Shown here: positions 10,249-50,527 of the stretch, piece after piece | Position numbering within the stretch: the first letter of the stretch is position 1 | Layout of the letters: every line of letters begins with the position of its first letter | Origin: Bradyrhizobium sp. SZCCT0153 | GTDB lineage: Bacteria; Pseudomonadota; Alphaproteobacteria; Rhizobiales; Xanthobacteraceae | Assembly (NCBI RefSeq): GCF_018129995.1 | Contig: NZ_JAFCKS010000002.1 | Coordinates: 310,001-374,000 of the forward strand | DNA length: 64,000 bases | Direction: 5' to 3' | Notes under the pieces: generated by a model | The model's database searches: none | Told to the model about the DNA's origin: nothing | Seen by the model: only the letters and a program-made list of their open reading frames with translations | Program-made: the position numbers and the translations under genes

Positions 10249-10251
10249 GGT

Positions 10252-10360
10252 CCTCATCCTGAGGAGCGGCCGTCAGGCCGCGTCTCGAAGGATGGCTCCA
10301 GGTGACAGTCGGGCCTTCATGGTTCGAGACGCGCGCAAGAACGCGCTCCTCACCATGAGG
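10252..10360. repeat. Imperfect palindromic intergenic repeat (family C)
   Basis: About 110 bases beginning CCTCATCCTGAGGAGCG and ending CGCTCCTCACCATGAGG, with an internal GTCTCGAA...TTCGAGAC pair, form a long imperfect inverted repeat. It directly follows the stop codon at 10248. Elements with this CCTCA...GAGCGCG pattern are familiar in Bradyrhizobium and Rhodopseudomonas intergenic regions. Only this one copy was seen here. Confidence 0.6.
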
Positions 10361-10412
10361 GAGATCTAAAGTGCGATGAGATTGGGATGAATCGTCATCG
10401 CGCTTTAGGTTC

Positions 10413-10470
10413 TTGTTTGAGCATGATCTTTTCGGAAAACCGCTTCGCACTTTTCCGGATCATGCTCTAG
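10413..10470 (-). repeat. Nested-palindrome repeat overlapping a gene end (family B, copy 1)
   Basis: GAGCATGATC and GATCATGCTC form outer 10-base arms, with an inner CGGAAAA/TTTTCCG pair. Read on the minus strand, the element begins at the TAG stop of the permease gene that ends at 10467. A second copy at 50462-50520 differs at one internal position over the palindromic core. Confidence 0.8.
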
Positions 10471-11354
10471 CGCTGGCGCGGGTCGAGGGCGTCGCGCAGC
10501 CCGTCGCCGAGCAGGTTCAGCGACAGCACCACGAGGAAGATCGCAAGCCCCGGCCAGATCGCTATCCACGGCGCCTGGGTCAGGAAGCGTTGCGCCGCAT
10601 TGAGCATGCTGCCCCAGGACGGCGCCGGCGGCTGCTGGCCGAGGCCGAGGAACGACAGCGCGGCTTCGGCGATGATGGCGGCCGCAATCGACAGCGTCGC
10701 CTGCACCAGCAGCGCAGGCAGGATGTTCGGCAGGATATGCGAGAATGCGATCCGCCACGGTGGATTGCCGAGCGCGCGCGCCGCCTCGACGTAGTCCTCG
10801 GCCTTGACGACCAGTACCTGGCCGCGGGTCAGGCGGATGAAGATCGGCGTTGCCGAGATGCCGATCGCGATCATGGCATTGCCGAGGCTCGGCCCGAGGA
10901 ATGCGGCGAGCGCGATCGCCAGGATCAGGAACGGGCAGGCCAGCATCGCGTCCGTGATCCGGCTGATCAGCGCGTCGGTGAAGCCGCCGCGATAGCCGGC
11001 GACGAGGCCGAGCGGCACGCCGATGCCGAGCGCGATCGCAACCGAGATCAGGCCTGCGAGCAGCGATGCCCGCGCACCATGGACGACGCGGCTCAGGATG
11101 TCGCGGCCGAGCTCGTCGGTGCCGAACCAGTGTGCCGCGGTCGGCGGCTTGCGCACCAGGCTCCAGCTCGTTGCAATGGGATCATAGGGCACGACAAGCG
11201 GCGCGAGCAGCGCGAGGGCAATGAACATCGTGATCACGACGAGTCCAAACACGGCGGCCTTGCGCTTGAACAGCCGCCGCCGGGCGCGGCGTGCCGGGCT
11301 GTCGAGCTCGTAGGCTTGCGTGGCGGGGCTGGCTGGCAGCGCAGCGTCTGTCAT
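10467..11354 (-). CDS. Peptide ABC transporter permease, DppC/OppC type (second system)
   Basis: This is an inner-membrane channel subunit of a peptide importer, 295 residues. The N-terminal cytoplasmic arm (RRLFKRKAAVFGLVVITMFI) leads into the first helix, and the binding-protein-dependent permease domain contains the EAA-like loop VEAARALGNPPWRIAFSHILPN that contacts the ATPase. It starts three bases after the DppB-type gene and is the last gene of the long minus-strand run. Its stop codon TAG lies inside a palindromic repeat (10413-10470). Substrate is inferred only from the system type and from the nearby gamma-glutamyltransferase. Confidence 0.9.
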   Translation of the reverse strand: MTDAALPASPATQAYELDSPARRARRRLFKRKAAVFGLVVITMFIALALLAPLVVPYDPIATSWSLVRKPPTAAHWFGTDELGRDILSRVVHGARASLLAGLISVAIALGIGVPLGLVAGYRGGFTDALISRITDAMLACPFLILAIALAAFLGPSLGNAMIAIGISATPIFIRLTRGQVLVVKAEDYVEAARALGNPPWRIAFSHILPNILPALLVQATLSIAAAIIAEAALSFLGLGQQPPAPSWGSMLNAAQRFLTQAPWIAIWPGLAIFLVVLSLNLLGDGLRDALDPRQR

Positions 11355-45866: not shown

Positions 45867-46871
45867 ATGTCACCAGCCGATAGCAAAGCCGTCGAGGCGC
45901 GCTGCGTGCGCCTCAATGCCAAGGCCGAGAGCGCCGCGGCGCTTGCGCCCGCGGTCGAGCGTCAGAATTTAACACGCGGTCCAGGCGACTTCCTGATCGA
46001 GGTGAAGGCAGCCGCCGTCAATCCGTCCGACATCAAGGCCGCGACCGGGCTGATGCCCTATGCCGTATTCCCGCGCACGCCCGGCCGCGACTACGCGGGC
46101 GTGGTGATCGATGGGCCGGCCGATACGATCGGCCGCGAGGTGTTCGGCTCATCCGGCGATCTCGGCATCCGCCGCGACGGCACGCACGCAAGCCATCTCG
46201 TTGTGGAAGCCGACGCGGTGGTGGAGAAGCCGAAGGCGCTGTCCTGGGAGGAGGCGGCCGGCATCGGCGTGCCTTTCGTCACCGCCATGGAGGGCTTTCG
46301 CCGCGCCGGCGTGCCGAAGAATGGCGAGACCGTTCTGGTGTTCGGCGTCAACGGCAAGGTCGGTCAGGCTGCGGTACAGATCGCGACCTGGCAGGGCGCG
46401 CGCGTCATCGGCGTGGTGCGCAAGGCGGAAGCCTATGAAGGCCATGCCAATGGGCCCATCGAAGTGATCGACGCTTCCGTCACCGATGTCGCGACGCGCG
46501 TGCGCGAAGTGACCGGCGGCAAGGGCGCCGACATCGTCTTCAACACGGTCGGCGATCCCTATTTCCAGGCGGCGCACAAATCGCTCGCACTTCGCGGCCG
46601 CCAGATCCTGATCGCCGCGATTGACCGCATCGTGCAATTCAACATCCTCGAATTCTACCGGGGCCAGCACACCTATGTCGGCATCGACACACTCGGCCTG
46701 TCCTCGGTGGCAACGGGCTCCGTGCTGCGCGATCTCGGCCCCGGCTTTGCGAGCGGCCATCTGAAGCCGTTTCCGATCAGGGCGAATGCCGTCTATCCGC
46801 TGGAGCGCGCCAAGGAGGCGTATGTCGCGGTTGCCGGCTCGTCGCGGGATCGCGTGATCCTGAAGCCGTAA
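45867..46871 (+). CDS. Medium-chain dehydrogenase/reductase, quinone-oxidoreductase-like
   Basis: The product is 334 residues from ATG 45867. A GroES-like N-terminal domain (VKAAAVNPSDIKAATGLMPY, TPGRDYAGVVIDG) precedes a Rossmann domain (VLVFGVNGKVGQAAVQIATW). The zinc-binding cysteines of alcohol dehydrogenases are not seen, so it belongs to the zinc-free quinone/enoyl reductase type. A TTG at 45816 with AAGGA upstream gives a 17-residue longer version and a better ribosome site, but would place the hairpin at 45841 inside the gene. A role in phenylacetate metabolism is not shown. Confidence 0.8.
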   Translation: MSPADSKAVEARCVRLNAKAESAAALAPAVERQNLTRGPGDFLIEVKAAAVNPSDIKAATGLMPYAVFPRTPGRDYAGVVIDGPADTIGREVFGSSGDLGIRRDGTHASHLVVEADAVVEKPKALSWEEAAGIGVPFVTAMEGFRRAGVPKNGETVLVFGVNGKVGQAAVQIATWQGARVIGVVRKAEAYEGHANGPIEVIDASVTDVATRVREVTGGKGADIVFNTVGDPYFQAAHKSLALRGRQILIAAIDRIVQFNILEFYRGQHTYVGIDTLGLSSVATGSVLRDLGPGFASGHLKPFPIRANAVYPLERAKEAYVAVAGSSRDRVILKP

Positions 46872-46877
46872 CACGTC

Positions 46878-46956
46878 GTCATTGCGAGCGCAGCGAAGCA
46901 ATCCAGAAATGTATCCGCGGAGACAGACTGGATTGCTTCGCTGCGCTCGCAATGAC
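46878..46956. repeat. Palindromic repeat family A, copy 4
   Basis: Arms GTCATTGCGAGCGCAGCGAA and its near-complement ending in GCAATGAC enclose a GTATCCGCGGAGAC centre, with inner GAAGCAATCCAG / CTGGATTGCTTC. It fills the gap between the oxidoreductase and the transporter gene. Confidence 0.88.
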
Positions 46957-46986
46957 GGAGAATGACGAGAGATCTGAGAACAGCCG

Positions 46987-48042: not shown

Positions 48043-48935
48043 CCGCGCAGCAGCCGGTCGCCCAGCGTCGCAAGGCCGATACCGGCGACGATCAGCCCGG
48101 CTGCGACAGCAAGACTGATGTCGATCGGCTCGCCCAGCAGGATCGCGGCACTGGCGATGCCGACGAGCGGTGTCCCGGTGGTGCCGAGCGACGTCGTCAG
48201 CGCCGAGATGCTCTTGTTGACCATCGACATCGCCCAATAGGCCAGCGCCGTCCCGATCAGTCCGGAGTACAGGAACAGCAGGACGAGCCGCCACGACCAT
48301 TCCGCATGCGGCAGGCCGTCCGTGACGGTCGCGCTGACGGTCAGCACGATCGTTGCGACGAGTACCTGCCAAATCAGCAACTGGAGCGGGGATGCGATCC
48401 AGCGATGCGCGCGGATATAGATAATGTTCGCGGCCCAGGACATCGCGGCCAGGATGACCATGCCGGCGCCGAGCACGACGTTGCTATTGGTCCAGTCGAT
48501 CGATGCCGGGTTCAGGATCACGGCAAGGCCGATCAGTCCGAGCAGGGCGCCGGCAAGTTTTGGCGCGGTCAGCGTATCCTTCCCGAGCAGGGGCGCAGCG
48601 ATCGCGACCCAGAGCGGCGTGGTGTAGCCGAGCACGATGGCCTTGCTCGCGGGCAAGAAGCGCACGCCGGCCGCAACCAGGACCGAGAACACCGTCATGT
48701 GCAGCAGCGCGACGCTCAGAACCACAGGAATGTCGCGACGCTCCGGGATCACCAGATTGTTGCTCAGTCCCAGGATCACGAACAATCCGGCCAGCGCGAT
48801 CCAGCTTCGGATCGCCGACGTCCACAGCGGCGGAAGGAACTGGACGAGCTGCTTCGTCACCGACCAGTTCACGCCCCAGGCCAGCACGACGATGAGGAAC
48901 AGGCCGACGGCCGTGCGGGGTGAGAGGAAGTTCAT
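48021..48935 (-). CDS. DMT-superfamily (EamA) transporter
   Basis: The product is 304 residues from the ATG at 48935, with ten predicted helices in two EamA repeats. The segments VVLAWGVNWSVTKQLVQFLPPLW and LGYTTPLWVAIAAPLL are typical of drug/metabolite exporters. Starts further upstream would run into the divergent MocR start region. It is divergent from the MocR-type regulator and most likely its target; exported amino acids or related compounds are the usual substrates. Confidence 0.87.
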   Translation of the reverse strand: MNFLSPRTAVGLFLIVVLAWGVNWSVTKQLVQFLPPLWTSAIRSWIALAGLFVILGLSNNLVIPERRDIPVVLSVALLHMTVFSVLVAAGVRFLPASKAIVLGYTTPLWVAIAAPLLGKDTLTAPKLAGALLGLIGLAVILNPASIDWTNSNVVLGAGMVILAAMSWAANIIYIRAHRWIASPLQLLIWQVLVATIVLTVSATVTDGLPHAEWSWRLVLLFLYSGLIGTALAYWAMSMVNKSISALTTSLGTTGTPLVGIASAAILLGEPIDISLAVAAGLIVAGIGLATLGDRLLRGQATARG

Positions 48936-48994
48936 CGCAAAATCCTTGAAGCAGTCCAGCCCGGCGGATAGCATCTCGATTGGCACCAGAAAAA

Positions 48995-49024
48995 GTGCCA
49001 GATCGGAAAGGAATAAGGTGCCAG
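48995..49024. promoter_or_regulatory. Direct-repeat operator between DMT transporter and MocR genes
   Basis: GTGCCAG occurs at 48995-49001 and again at 49018-49024, a start-to-start distance of 23 bases, close to two helix turns. A related inverted TGGCACC lies at 48981-48987. Direct repeats of this spacing are typical binding sites for MocR/PdxR-type GntR proteins. It lies within the 100-base divergent intergenic region. Confidence 0.5.
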
Positions 49025-49035
49025 TTTCGGAAAGC

Positions 49036-50466
49036 ATGATTTCTGCCCTGATCGACCTGAGGCGGGCCGATGATGACGGGCTGGTGGCTCAGTTGACCAG
49101 CCAGCTCCGAGGCCTGATCGCGACCGGCCGTCTCCACAAGGGTCGTGCGCTGCCGTCGAGCCGCCGGCTGGCGAGCGATCTCGGCGTTTCCCGCAACACG
49201 GTCACCTACGCGTTCGAACAGCTCGCCGCCGAGGGATATCTCGAGGCATCGCATGGCCGTCGCCCGGTGGTGACGGTCGACGGCGGCGCGCACGGTGAAG
49301 GGGTGGGGGCGTTCGTATCCGGCGTGCGCTCCGCAAAGCCGCGGCTCTCCCCGTGGGCTTCGAAGCTCAAGCAGACGGACTGGCCGATGTCCTATCAGGC
49401 ACCGCTCAAGCCGTTGCGTCCGGGGCATGGCGATTTCAGGGAGTTTCCGAGCGAAGTCTGGGCCCGCTGCCTGCGCCGCAGCGCTGTGCGCGCGGCCAAG
49501 CGTGAACTCGGGCCGGTCAACCGGACCCGCCTGCGCGAGGCGCTGGCGCATTATCTGGCGACCAGCAGGGGCGTTCACGCCACTGCGGACCAGATCATGA
49601 TCCTGCCGAGCGCGCAGGCTGCGCTGACGTTGATTGCGGCGTCGCTCATCGCGCCCGGCGATGACGTCTGGGTCGAGAATCCCGGTTATCCCGGCGCCAC
49701 GGCTGCCTTCCTTGCGTCCGGCGCACGCGTCACCGGCATGAGGCTGGACGAGCAGGGTATGCAGCGAATGCCCGGAATAGCCACGCCAAAGCTCATCTTC
49801 ATGACACCATCTCACCAGCACCCGACCGGGCGGCTGATGTCGCTGGCCCGCCGCACCGAGTTTCTCAGGTTGAGCCGGCCCGGCAAGACCTGGATTGTGG
49901 AGGACGATTACGACGGCGAATTCCACTATGACAGCCGGCCAGTGCCGGCCTTGCAGGGCCTCGATGCCCATGGCCGCGTGTTCTATGTCGGCACGTTCTC
50001 GAAGGCGATGACATCGGACATCCGGCTTGGCTATCTCGTCGTGCCGCCGGCGCTGGTCGGGACCCTGGAAATCGCGCAACGGCACATCGGGCTGATTGCT
50101 TCCAGCCATATCCAGGAAGCGCTCGCCGAGTTCATCGCCGACGGGCATTTCCTCGCACATCTGCGCCGCGTGCGCCGGCTCTATCACGCACGCCGCGATC
50201 ATCTCGTCGAGGGCCTGGAGCGCCATCTTGGTGGGGCGCTTTCGGTCGAGGTCCCCTCGGGCGGCATCCAGCTCGTCGCGCGCCTCAAGCGAGGCCGCGC
50301 TGATCAGGCGGCGGTCAAGCTGCTGGTCGAAGCGGGCGTCGAAACGCGTGCCTTGTCCAGCCTGTCGTTGGGTCGGCCGCGCGATCACGGCCTGCTGCTC
50401 GGCTTTGCGGCCTGGCGCGAGAACGAGATCAGCGCGGCACTGCGGACGATGGCGGCGTGCTTCTAG
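49036..50466 (+). CDS. MocR/PdxR-type GntR regulator with aminotransferase domain
   Basis: The product is 476 residues. Residues of about 15-80 are a GntR winged helix (RGLIATGRLHKGRALPSSRR, LASDLGVSRNTVTYAFEQLA). The rest is a fold-type I aminotransferase-like domain that binds pyridoxal phosphate, with probable Lys323 in YVGTFSKAMTSDIRLGYLVV and VENPGYPGATAAF earlier. It is divergent from an EamA exporter, a frequent arrangement in which the regulator controls the exporter. Its stop codon TAG is inside repeat family B. Confidence 0.9.
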   Translation: MISALIDLRRADDDGLVAQLTSQLRGLIATGRLHKGRALPSSRRLASDLGVSRNTVTYAFEQLAAEGYLEASHGRRPVVTVDGGAHGEGVGAFVSGVRSAKPRLSPWASKLKQTDWPMSYQAPLKPLRPGHGDFREFPSEVWARCLRRSAVRAAKRELGPVNRTRLREALAHYLATSRGVHATADQIMILPSAQAALTLIAASLIAPGDDVWVENPGYPGATAAFLASGARVTGMRLDEQGMQRMPGIATPKLIFMTPSHQHPTGRLMSLARRTEFLRLSRPGKTWIVEDDYDGEFHYDSRPVPALQGLDAHGRVFYVGTFSKAMTSDIRLGYLVVPPALVGTLEIAQRHIGLIASSHIQEALAEFIADGHFLAHLRRVRRLYHARRDHLVEGLERHLGGALSVEVPSGGIQLVARLKRGRADQAAVKLLVEAGVETRALSSLSLGRPRDHGLLLGFAAWRENEISAALRTMAACF

Positions 50467-50520
50467 AGCATGATCCGGAAAAGTGTGAAGCGGTTTTCCG
50501 AAAAGATCATGCTCAAACAA
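50462..50520 (+). repeat. Nested-palindrome repeat overlapping a gene end (family B, copy 2)
   Basis: This is the same element as at 10413-10470, here in plus orientation: CTAGAGCATGATC, CGGAAAA, TTTTCCG and GATCATGCTC in order, then AAACAA. The MocR gene's TAG (50464-50466) is the first part of the element. It differs from copy 1 at one position in the core. Confidence 0.85.
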
Positions 50521-50527
50521 TAGGGCG

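Follow-up and report, generated by a model that had tools for sequence, protein, structure and literature searches.

Why do two unrelated genes of Bradyrhizobium sp. SZCCT0153 terminate at the very same base of the same palindromic repeat? One of them is a DppC-type gene on the minus strand, the other a MocR-type gene on the plus strand, and both lie in the window (the whole stretch of 64,000 nucleotides analyzed here). The initial annotation had described a nested palindrome of about 57 bases that supplies the stop codon of both genes, and had suggested an element that inserts, or is selected, at gene ends and may serve there as a signal for 3' end processing or stability. This coincidence of unrelated genes ending on one repeat base leads to a simple rule that is checkable in any genome: a CTAG target together with a purine as the element's first base would make insertion into a stop codon harmless. 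The features concerned are the following.

10367 to 10469, minus strand: copy 1, the full 99-bp element (10369-10467) with its TAs at 10468-10469 and 10367-10368
10419 to 10467, minus strand: hairpin I of copy 1 (GAGCATGATC ... GATCATGCTC), corresponding to the initially annotated palindrome
10369 to 10405, minus strand: hairpin II of copy 1 (AAGCGCGATGA ... TCATCGCACTT)
10467 to 10469, minus strand: TAG stop of the DppC-type gene; the target gives TA, the first base of the element gives G
10467 to 11354, minus strand: DppC-type ABC transporter permease gene (name from the initial annotation), ending on copy 1
50464 to 50520, plus strand: copy 2, a short form that runs from TA through hairpin I and into the spacer as far as CAAACAA, with TAG immediately after it; hairpin II is missing
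50464 to 50466, plus strand: TAG stop of the MocR-type gene; the target gives TA, the first base of the element gives G
48637 to 50466, plus strand: MocR-type regulator ORF (name from the initial annotation), ending on copy 2; its true start is probably near 49036

A left-arm probe allowing up to three mismatches found exactly two sites in the window, both with 0 mismatches (the mean of 100 shuffles was 0.13, and two of the shuffles likewise gave two sites), which confirms both copies at the places originally given. The ORF ends at 10467 (minus) and 50466 (plus) fall on the same base of the element, as had been claimed, and the single core difference between copies 1 and 2 (GTGCG versus GTGTG) was also found again. 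The palindrome of about 57 bases is present at both sites, but the complete unit is larger, and the palindrome makes up its left half. When 30 copies from this genome were set out next to one another, an element of 99 bp with two hairpins became apparent; it is bounded by TA dinucleotides and measures 103 bp if both flanking TAs are included. In the full element hairpin I (49 bases) is followed by a short spacer and by hairpin II with the end TCATCGCGCTT, and a TA lies outside each end. The ends themselves, RAGC.. and ..GCTT, are terminal inverted repeats (left GAGCATGATC, right, when reversed, AAGCGCGATG), and transposase coding capacity is absent from the 99 bp. At the site of copy 2 (window 50464-50522) the short form occurs in this genome and in two relatives (L091, L092), where it ends with CAAACAA before TA or TGA; three further relatives (L093-L095) have the full form at this site. 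In full copies a TA precedes hairpin II, and hairpin II may have been lost as a unit.

Copies in this genome were collected from 44 fetched places, in 42 of which a copy was located; this number is a lower bound, since the searches scored the best 40 of 78 and the best 40 of 89 candidates. Copies in other genomes were taken from a contig pattern scan with 80 loci listed out of at least 117 stretches. The scan pattern required the conserved hairpin I plus part of hairpin II, so that old or damaged copies are represented too sparsely; a single strain, Bradyrhizobium sp. SSUT77, contributes 18 of the 80 scan loci. Orthologous copies across species were filtered by a flank-identity check alone, and the copies are thus partly non-independent. 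From the resulting 124 loci, L046 and L048, which alignment did not locate, were excluded and 27 partial copies were counted separately, leaving 95 full-length copies (18 from this genome and 77 from the genome collection, nearly all of them Bradyrhizobium records). To call gene ends, a small gene finder based on codon usage was trained on the window.

The flanks of the 95 full-length copies define the target. A TA is found on the left of 83 copies, on the right of 87 and on both sides of 77; the left dinucleotide is preceded by C in 79 of 94 cases and the right one is followed by G in 87 of 95, with no comparable preference at bases further outward. Two pairs of filled and empty sites are available: L094 has the element between two TAs and L098 has a single TA between the same flanks, and L093 and L105 repeat this picture (TA[element]TA versus a single TA). 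The flank counts show a CTAG target with duplication of the TA, and the filled/empty pairs agree. The first base of the element is G in 59 copies, A in 35 and C in one, and its last base is T in 93, so that TAG or TAA is restored from TA at either end. The idea of an element that inserts at gene ends hereby gains a mechanism: a CTAG target, a TA duplication and a purine as first base. At three loci (L024, L141, L197) the flanking TA has become TG (CA on the opposite strand); there the A of the element gives TGA and the neighboring gene ends at the same codon.

CTAG itself is scarce in the window, with 12 occurrences found versus 60-66 expected. Among 209 CTAG sites outside the element, drawn from the sampled loci and the window, 43 are in-frame stops, 43 lie inside genes and 123 fall elsewhere, so that roughly one CTAG site in five is a stop codon.

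Did the element create the stops on which it sits? For each of the two window copies, 29 relative loci were read; those for the copy 1 site were the best-matching ones among 60 genomes searched. The element is absent from the copy 1 site in 29 of these 29 loci, and the same codon, located by extrapolation over no more than 9 bases, is a stop in all of them (TAG in 23, TAA in six). At the copy 2 site the element is present in five relatives, three of which have it complete and two in the short form seen in the window. Three of the 24 loci without the element (L112, L115, L116) could not be aligned at the gene end and were excluded; 17 of the 21 alignable empty sites have TAG or TAA at the codon. 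Since empty homologous sites already show TAG or TAA, the alignments indicate that the element landed in existing stops and did not create them. The claim that the palindrome supplies the stop codon consequently holds for a single base only, the codon having been TAG or TAA in the relatives already. In two homologues of the copy 1 site (L067, L074) the same dppC stop is occupied by another palindrome, unrelated to the element and bounded by TAGAGCC and GGGCTCTAG; different elements have thus struck this stop.

Across the full-length copies a neighboring gene stops exactly at the element end in 55 of 95 cases (left end 29, right end 31, both ends five), and a gene reads into the element in one. 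The neighbors of these copies are convergent in 55 cases, run in the same direction in 26 and are divergent in none; the remaining 14 have a gene call on one side. Divergent placement is thus depleted: none of the 81 copies with a gene called on each side has it, compared with 42 of the 153 noncoding CTAG sites flanked by genes on both sides (p 3e-9). The share of copies on stops exceeds that of all CTAG sites (p 4e-10) as well as that of noncoding CTAG sites (43/166, p 4e-7). Broken down by context, copies lie on stops more often than CTAG sites between convergent genes (36/55 versus 11/30, p 0.013) and in one-sided contexts (5/14 versus 0/13, p 0.04), and the difference is not significant between genes of the same direction (14/26 versus 32/81, p 0.26). 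The convergent-gene excess goes beyond target choice plus purging of other contexts. Partial copies are on a stop in ten of 27 cases, and ten gene ends read into their aligned span. By the gene finder, 15 of 18 copies in this genome are on stops versus 40 of 77 in other genomes, a gap that may come in part from the training of the gene finder; at annotated Bradyrhizobium plasmid loci the gene ends exactly on the element in three of three. The tally of stop codons and gene orientation by which the initial annotation proposed to judge its claim accordingly reveals a preference that is real in the sampled copies.

A CTAG preference of IS630 itself is known from the older literature, and several IS630 groups of the genus, about 1,050 bp long, have TA-RAGC at both start and end. 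The right end of the element matches four IS630 ends at 12-13 of 15 bases, and the best among 20,300 other TA sites is 11; the left end does less well, with at most 10 of 15 bases shared with IS630 ends, and ordinary TA sites reach up to 12. The 87 IS630 loci yielded 39 distinct copies in which both ends were recognized; the end filter requires a purine after the TA, by which the purine property of these insertion sequences is predetermined. Of these copies 36 lie in CTAG, 13 on stops (nine of 20 for the RAGC type) and one inside a gene, and their contexts are convergent (16), same direction (8), divergent (2) and one-sided or unclear (12). They are on stops no more often than noncoding CTAG sites are (p 0.32), and a smaller share of them than of CTAG sites lies in divergent regions (2/26 versus 42/153, p 0.03). 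The MITE has a higher stop share than the IS630 copies as a whole (p 0.013) and does not differ significantly from the RAGC type (p 0.33). Further IS630 groups in the genus, of about 1,120, 1,190 and 1,500 bp and with ends unlike those of the MITE, are likewise found in CTAG (L262-L263, L273-L278, L310-L323).

IS630 copies occur in 31 of 40 genus genomes. In this 22-contig genome the DDE_3 domain (PF13358, IS630) gave no match. A transposase in the same genome is dispensable for a MITE that no longer moves, yet its absence weakens the link; the mobilizer would here be absent, lost, or hidden at a contig end.

Taken as a whole, we regard it as highly probable that the element is a non-autonomous MITE of the IS630 family which inserts at CTAG, and that its placement at gene ends results mainly from target choice and the loss of harmful insertions. 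A transposase acting in trans would insert the element at CTAG and duplicate the central TA, the duplication being visible in the filled/empty pairs. As the sequences show, either end of the element restores TAG or TAA from TA, and because of this rebuilding an insertion into a stop codon leaves the protein unchanged; of two convergent genes sharing one CTAG, each retains its stop. Insertions in promoters and coding regions, which are missing from the sample, were probably purged by selection. The scarcity of CTAG, the proportion of stops among CTAG sites, the harmlessness of insertions into stops and this purging would together place over half of the sampled full-length copies exactly on stops. 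Two unrelated genes would end on one base of the element because it enters CTAG and rebuilds the stop. In a transcribed copy the 3' UTR would gain one or two strong hairpins. Autonomous IS630 copies have a similar gene-end profile, so that most of the pattern can be accounted for with no host function. This speaks for target choice and purging as the primary causes, ahead of a function for the host, although part of the excess is left over.

A bolder version of this scenario takes the CTAG target and the purine-first ends as an evolved safe-landing device, with stop codons as the niche of the IS630/MITE lineage: outside stops CTAG is scarce, and genes arriving from either side have TAG or TAA restored in frame by the end they meet. 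If true, the choice of stop codons would not be a by-product but a way of targeting whose effect compares with that of tRNA-gene or attTn7 targeting. We put this forward tentatively and think it rather unlikely.

Three further explanations deserve consideration. The element might be functional at the 3' end, as an mRNA stabilizer, RNase III site or terminator, with copies on stops kept by positive selection, whatever moved them. A strong hairpin is indeed formed on both strands, the empty divergent regions and the stop excess between convergent genes would fit, as would a stop share above that of all IS630 copies, and the Correia elements of Neisseria, a similar class, are described in the text available as RNase III targets. 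However, IS630 copies show a similar profile (few divergent placements, a third of copies on stops) without these hairpins, and their RAGC type does not differ significantly from the MITE in stop share; copy 1 is missing from every relative read, covariation is neutral (two-sided in 2 of 28 pairs, most pairs being invariant) and no T-run was seen after the hairpins. Selection for a 3'-end function is, on this balance, an improbable cause of the pattern. More generally, the 3'-end position of a bacterial repeat is by itself no evidence of RNA function.

The preferred scenario would also have to change if the mobilizer were not IS630 but a transposase of the IS5/IS427 type such as IS711 of Brucella, for which the text available gives a TA duplication at YTAR and an association with Bru-RS repeats (PMC2266754, PMC3163539). 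This genome has three DUF4096 matches and zero DDE_3 matches. A scan around the three DUF4096 genes (L237-L239), however, found neither TA-bounded inverted ends nor a MITE-like end motif, and IS630 copies have them, which leaves the IS5/IS427-type mobilizer very improbable. That a common intergenic repeat merely happens to start with TAG could by no means explain why 55 of 95 full-length copies lie on stops (p 4e-7 relative to CTAG sites in noncoding DNA) and why the empty sites have the same stops; the initial reading rested on two copies, and 26% of noncoding CTAG sites are stops anyway, but a chance coincidence is hardly credible any longer.

How does an IS630-type MITE relate to known repeats? 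In the accessible text of two reports, the Bru-RS1 and Bru-RS2 repeats of Brucella are palindromic, intergenic and 103-106 bp long (PMC2267715, PMC10800456); as far as that text goes, they resemble our element, which has 103 bp with both TAs, in length and in the layout of two palindromes. The Rfam model of the Brucella sRNA CI27 aligns over all of copy 1 (E 5e-4), the parts following one another as they do in the element (TA-AAGC start, hairpin, CCTAAAGCG hairpin, CTTTAG end), at a score of 35.4 bits that lies under the gathering cut-off of 59.8, and we infer that CI27 is a copy of Bru-RS. Copy 2 scores 30.6 bits against Rfam CI408, whose cut-off is 398 bits. Relatives on Rhizobium plasmids have 73-76% identity over at least 97% of the query and the same layout. 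Three of them vary in their gene ends: L333 has annotated stops at both ends, at L330 a gene reads five codons in, and L332 shows neither. RIME elements of Rhizobium have a similar length and two palindromes, and RIMEs appear as annotated intergenic repeats of Sinorhizobium in the record available. The best reading is that the element is related to the Bru-RS repeats of Brucella and to similar Rhizobium repeats. A group of Rhizobiales repeats resembling those of Brucella and Rhizobium would thereby be tied to a likely mobilizer.

The closest working model is RUP of Streptococcus pneumoniae (the IS630-Spn1 MITE), for which the available text gives about 107 bp, a TA duplication, IS630-like ends and a proposed mobilization in trans; size, TA duplication and IS630-like ends are in common with the present element. 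RUP differs in its unrelated host and in being reported near IS elements, and a link to CTAG or stop codons was not found in the RUP text examined. Stop codons provided by repeat ends are already in print for another class, the GTAG REPs: in the accessible part of Di Nocera 2013 (PMC3733652) the ends of these 20-40 bp repeats with a GTAG tag and RAYT transposases often give the TAG stop of flanking ORFs, and the repeats are located mostly at 3' ends. The likeness to our element, within that source, lies in the stops and the 3'-end location. Membership in the GTAG REPs was rejected, given a length of 99 bp, two hairpins and a base before the left dinucleotide that is C in 79 and G in two of 94 copies. 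Br-REP1 and Br-REP2, which in the text available of Hahn 2016 (PMC5082802) are Bradyrhizobium repeats in 3' UTRs, share genus and location with the element; they were rejected as well, the best ungapped matches to the published consensus being 11 of 20 and 18 of 40 bases. Neither a description of the element as a MITE nor the stop-rebuilding rule was found in the open-access literature searched, which is weak evidence of absence, subscription papers being mostly outside its scope. Among the matches listed, a literal 10-mer search of the literature returned unrelated subjects.

As to the hairpins, RNA folding gave z-scores of -6.30 and -6.44 for the two strands, and none of 200 shuffles was as stable in each, which puts the hairpin far outside chance. 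In the 30-copy alignment covariation speaks neither for nor against an RNA structure or role, and it was rejected as proof of RNA function. Nor did inspection of the sequence after the hairpins show the T-run of an intrinsic terminator. In a transcribed copy the hairpins in the 3' UTR may slow decay or lead to RNase III cleavage, most likely as a side effect; the analogy with Correia elements makes an influence on 3' ends plausible.

Further repeats occur in the window. Another repeat, of the CCTCATGGTGAGG ... CGTCTCGAA type, adjoins copy 1 (window 10250-10362), and a repeat of this type also adjoins the empty site in three relatives (L063, L064, L079). For a long inverted repeat at window 46858-46974, Rfam gives a weak match with a plant microRNA family, at 35.6 bits where the cut-off is 100; the match is surely due to chance, and the sequence is probably another palindromic repeat.
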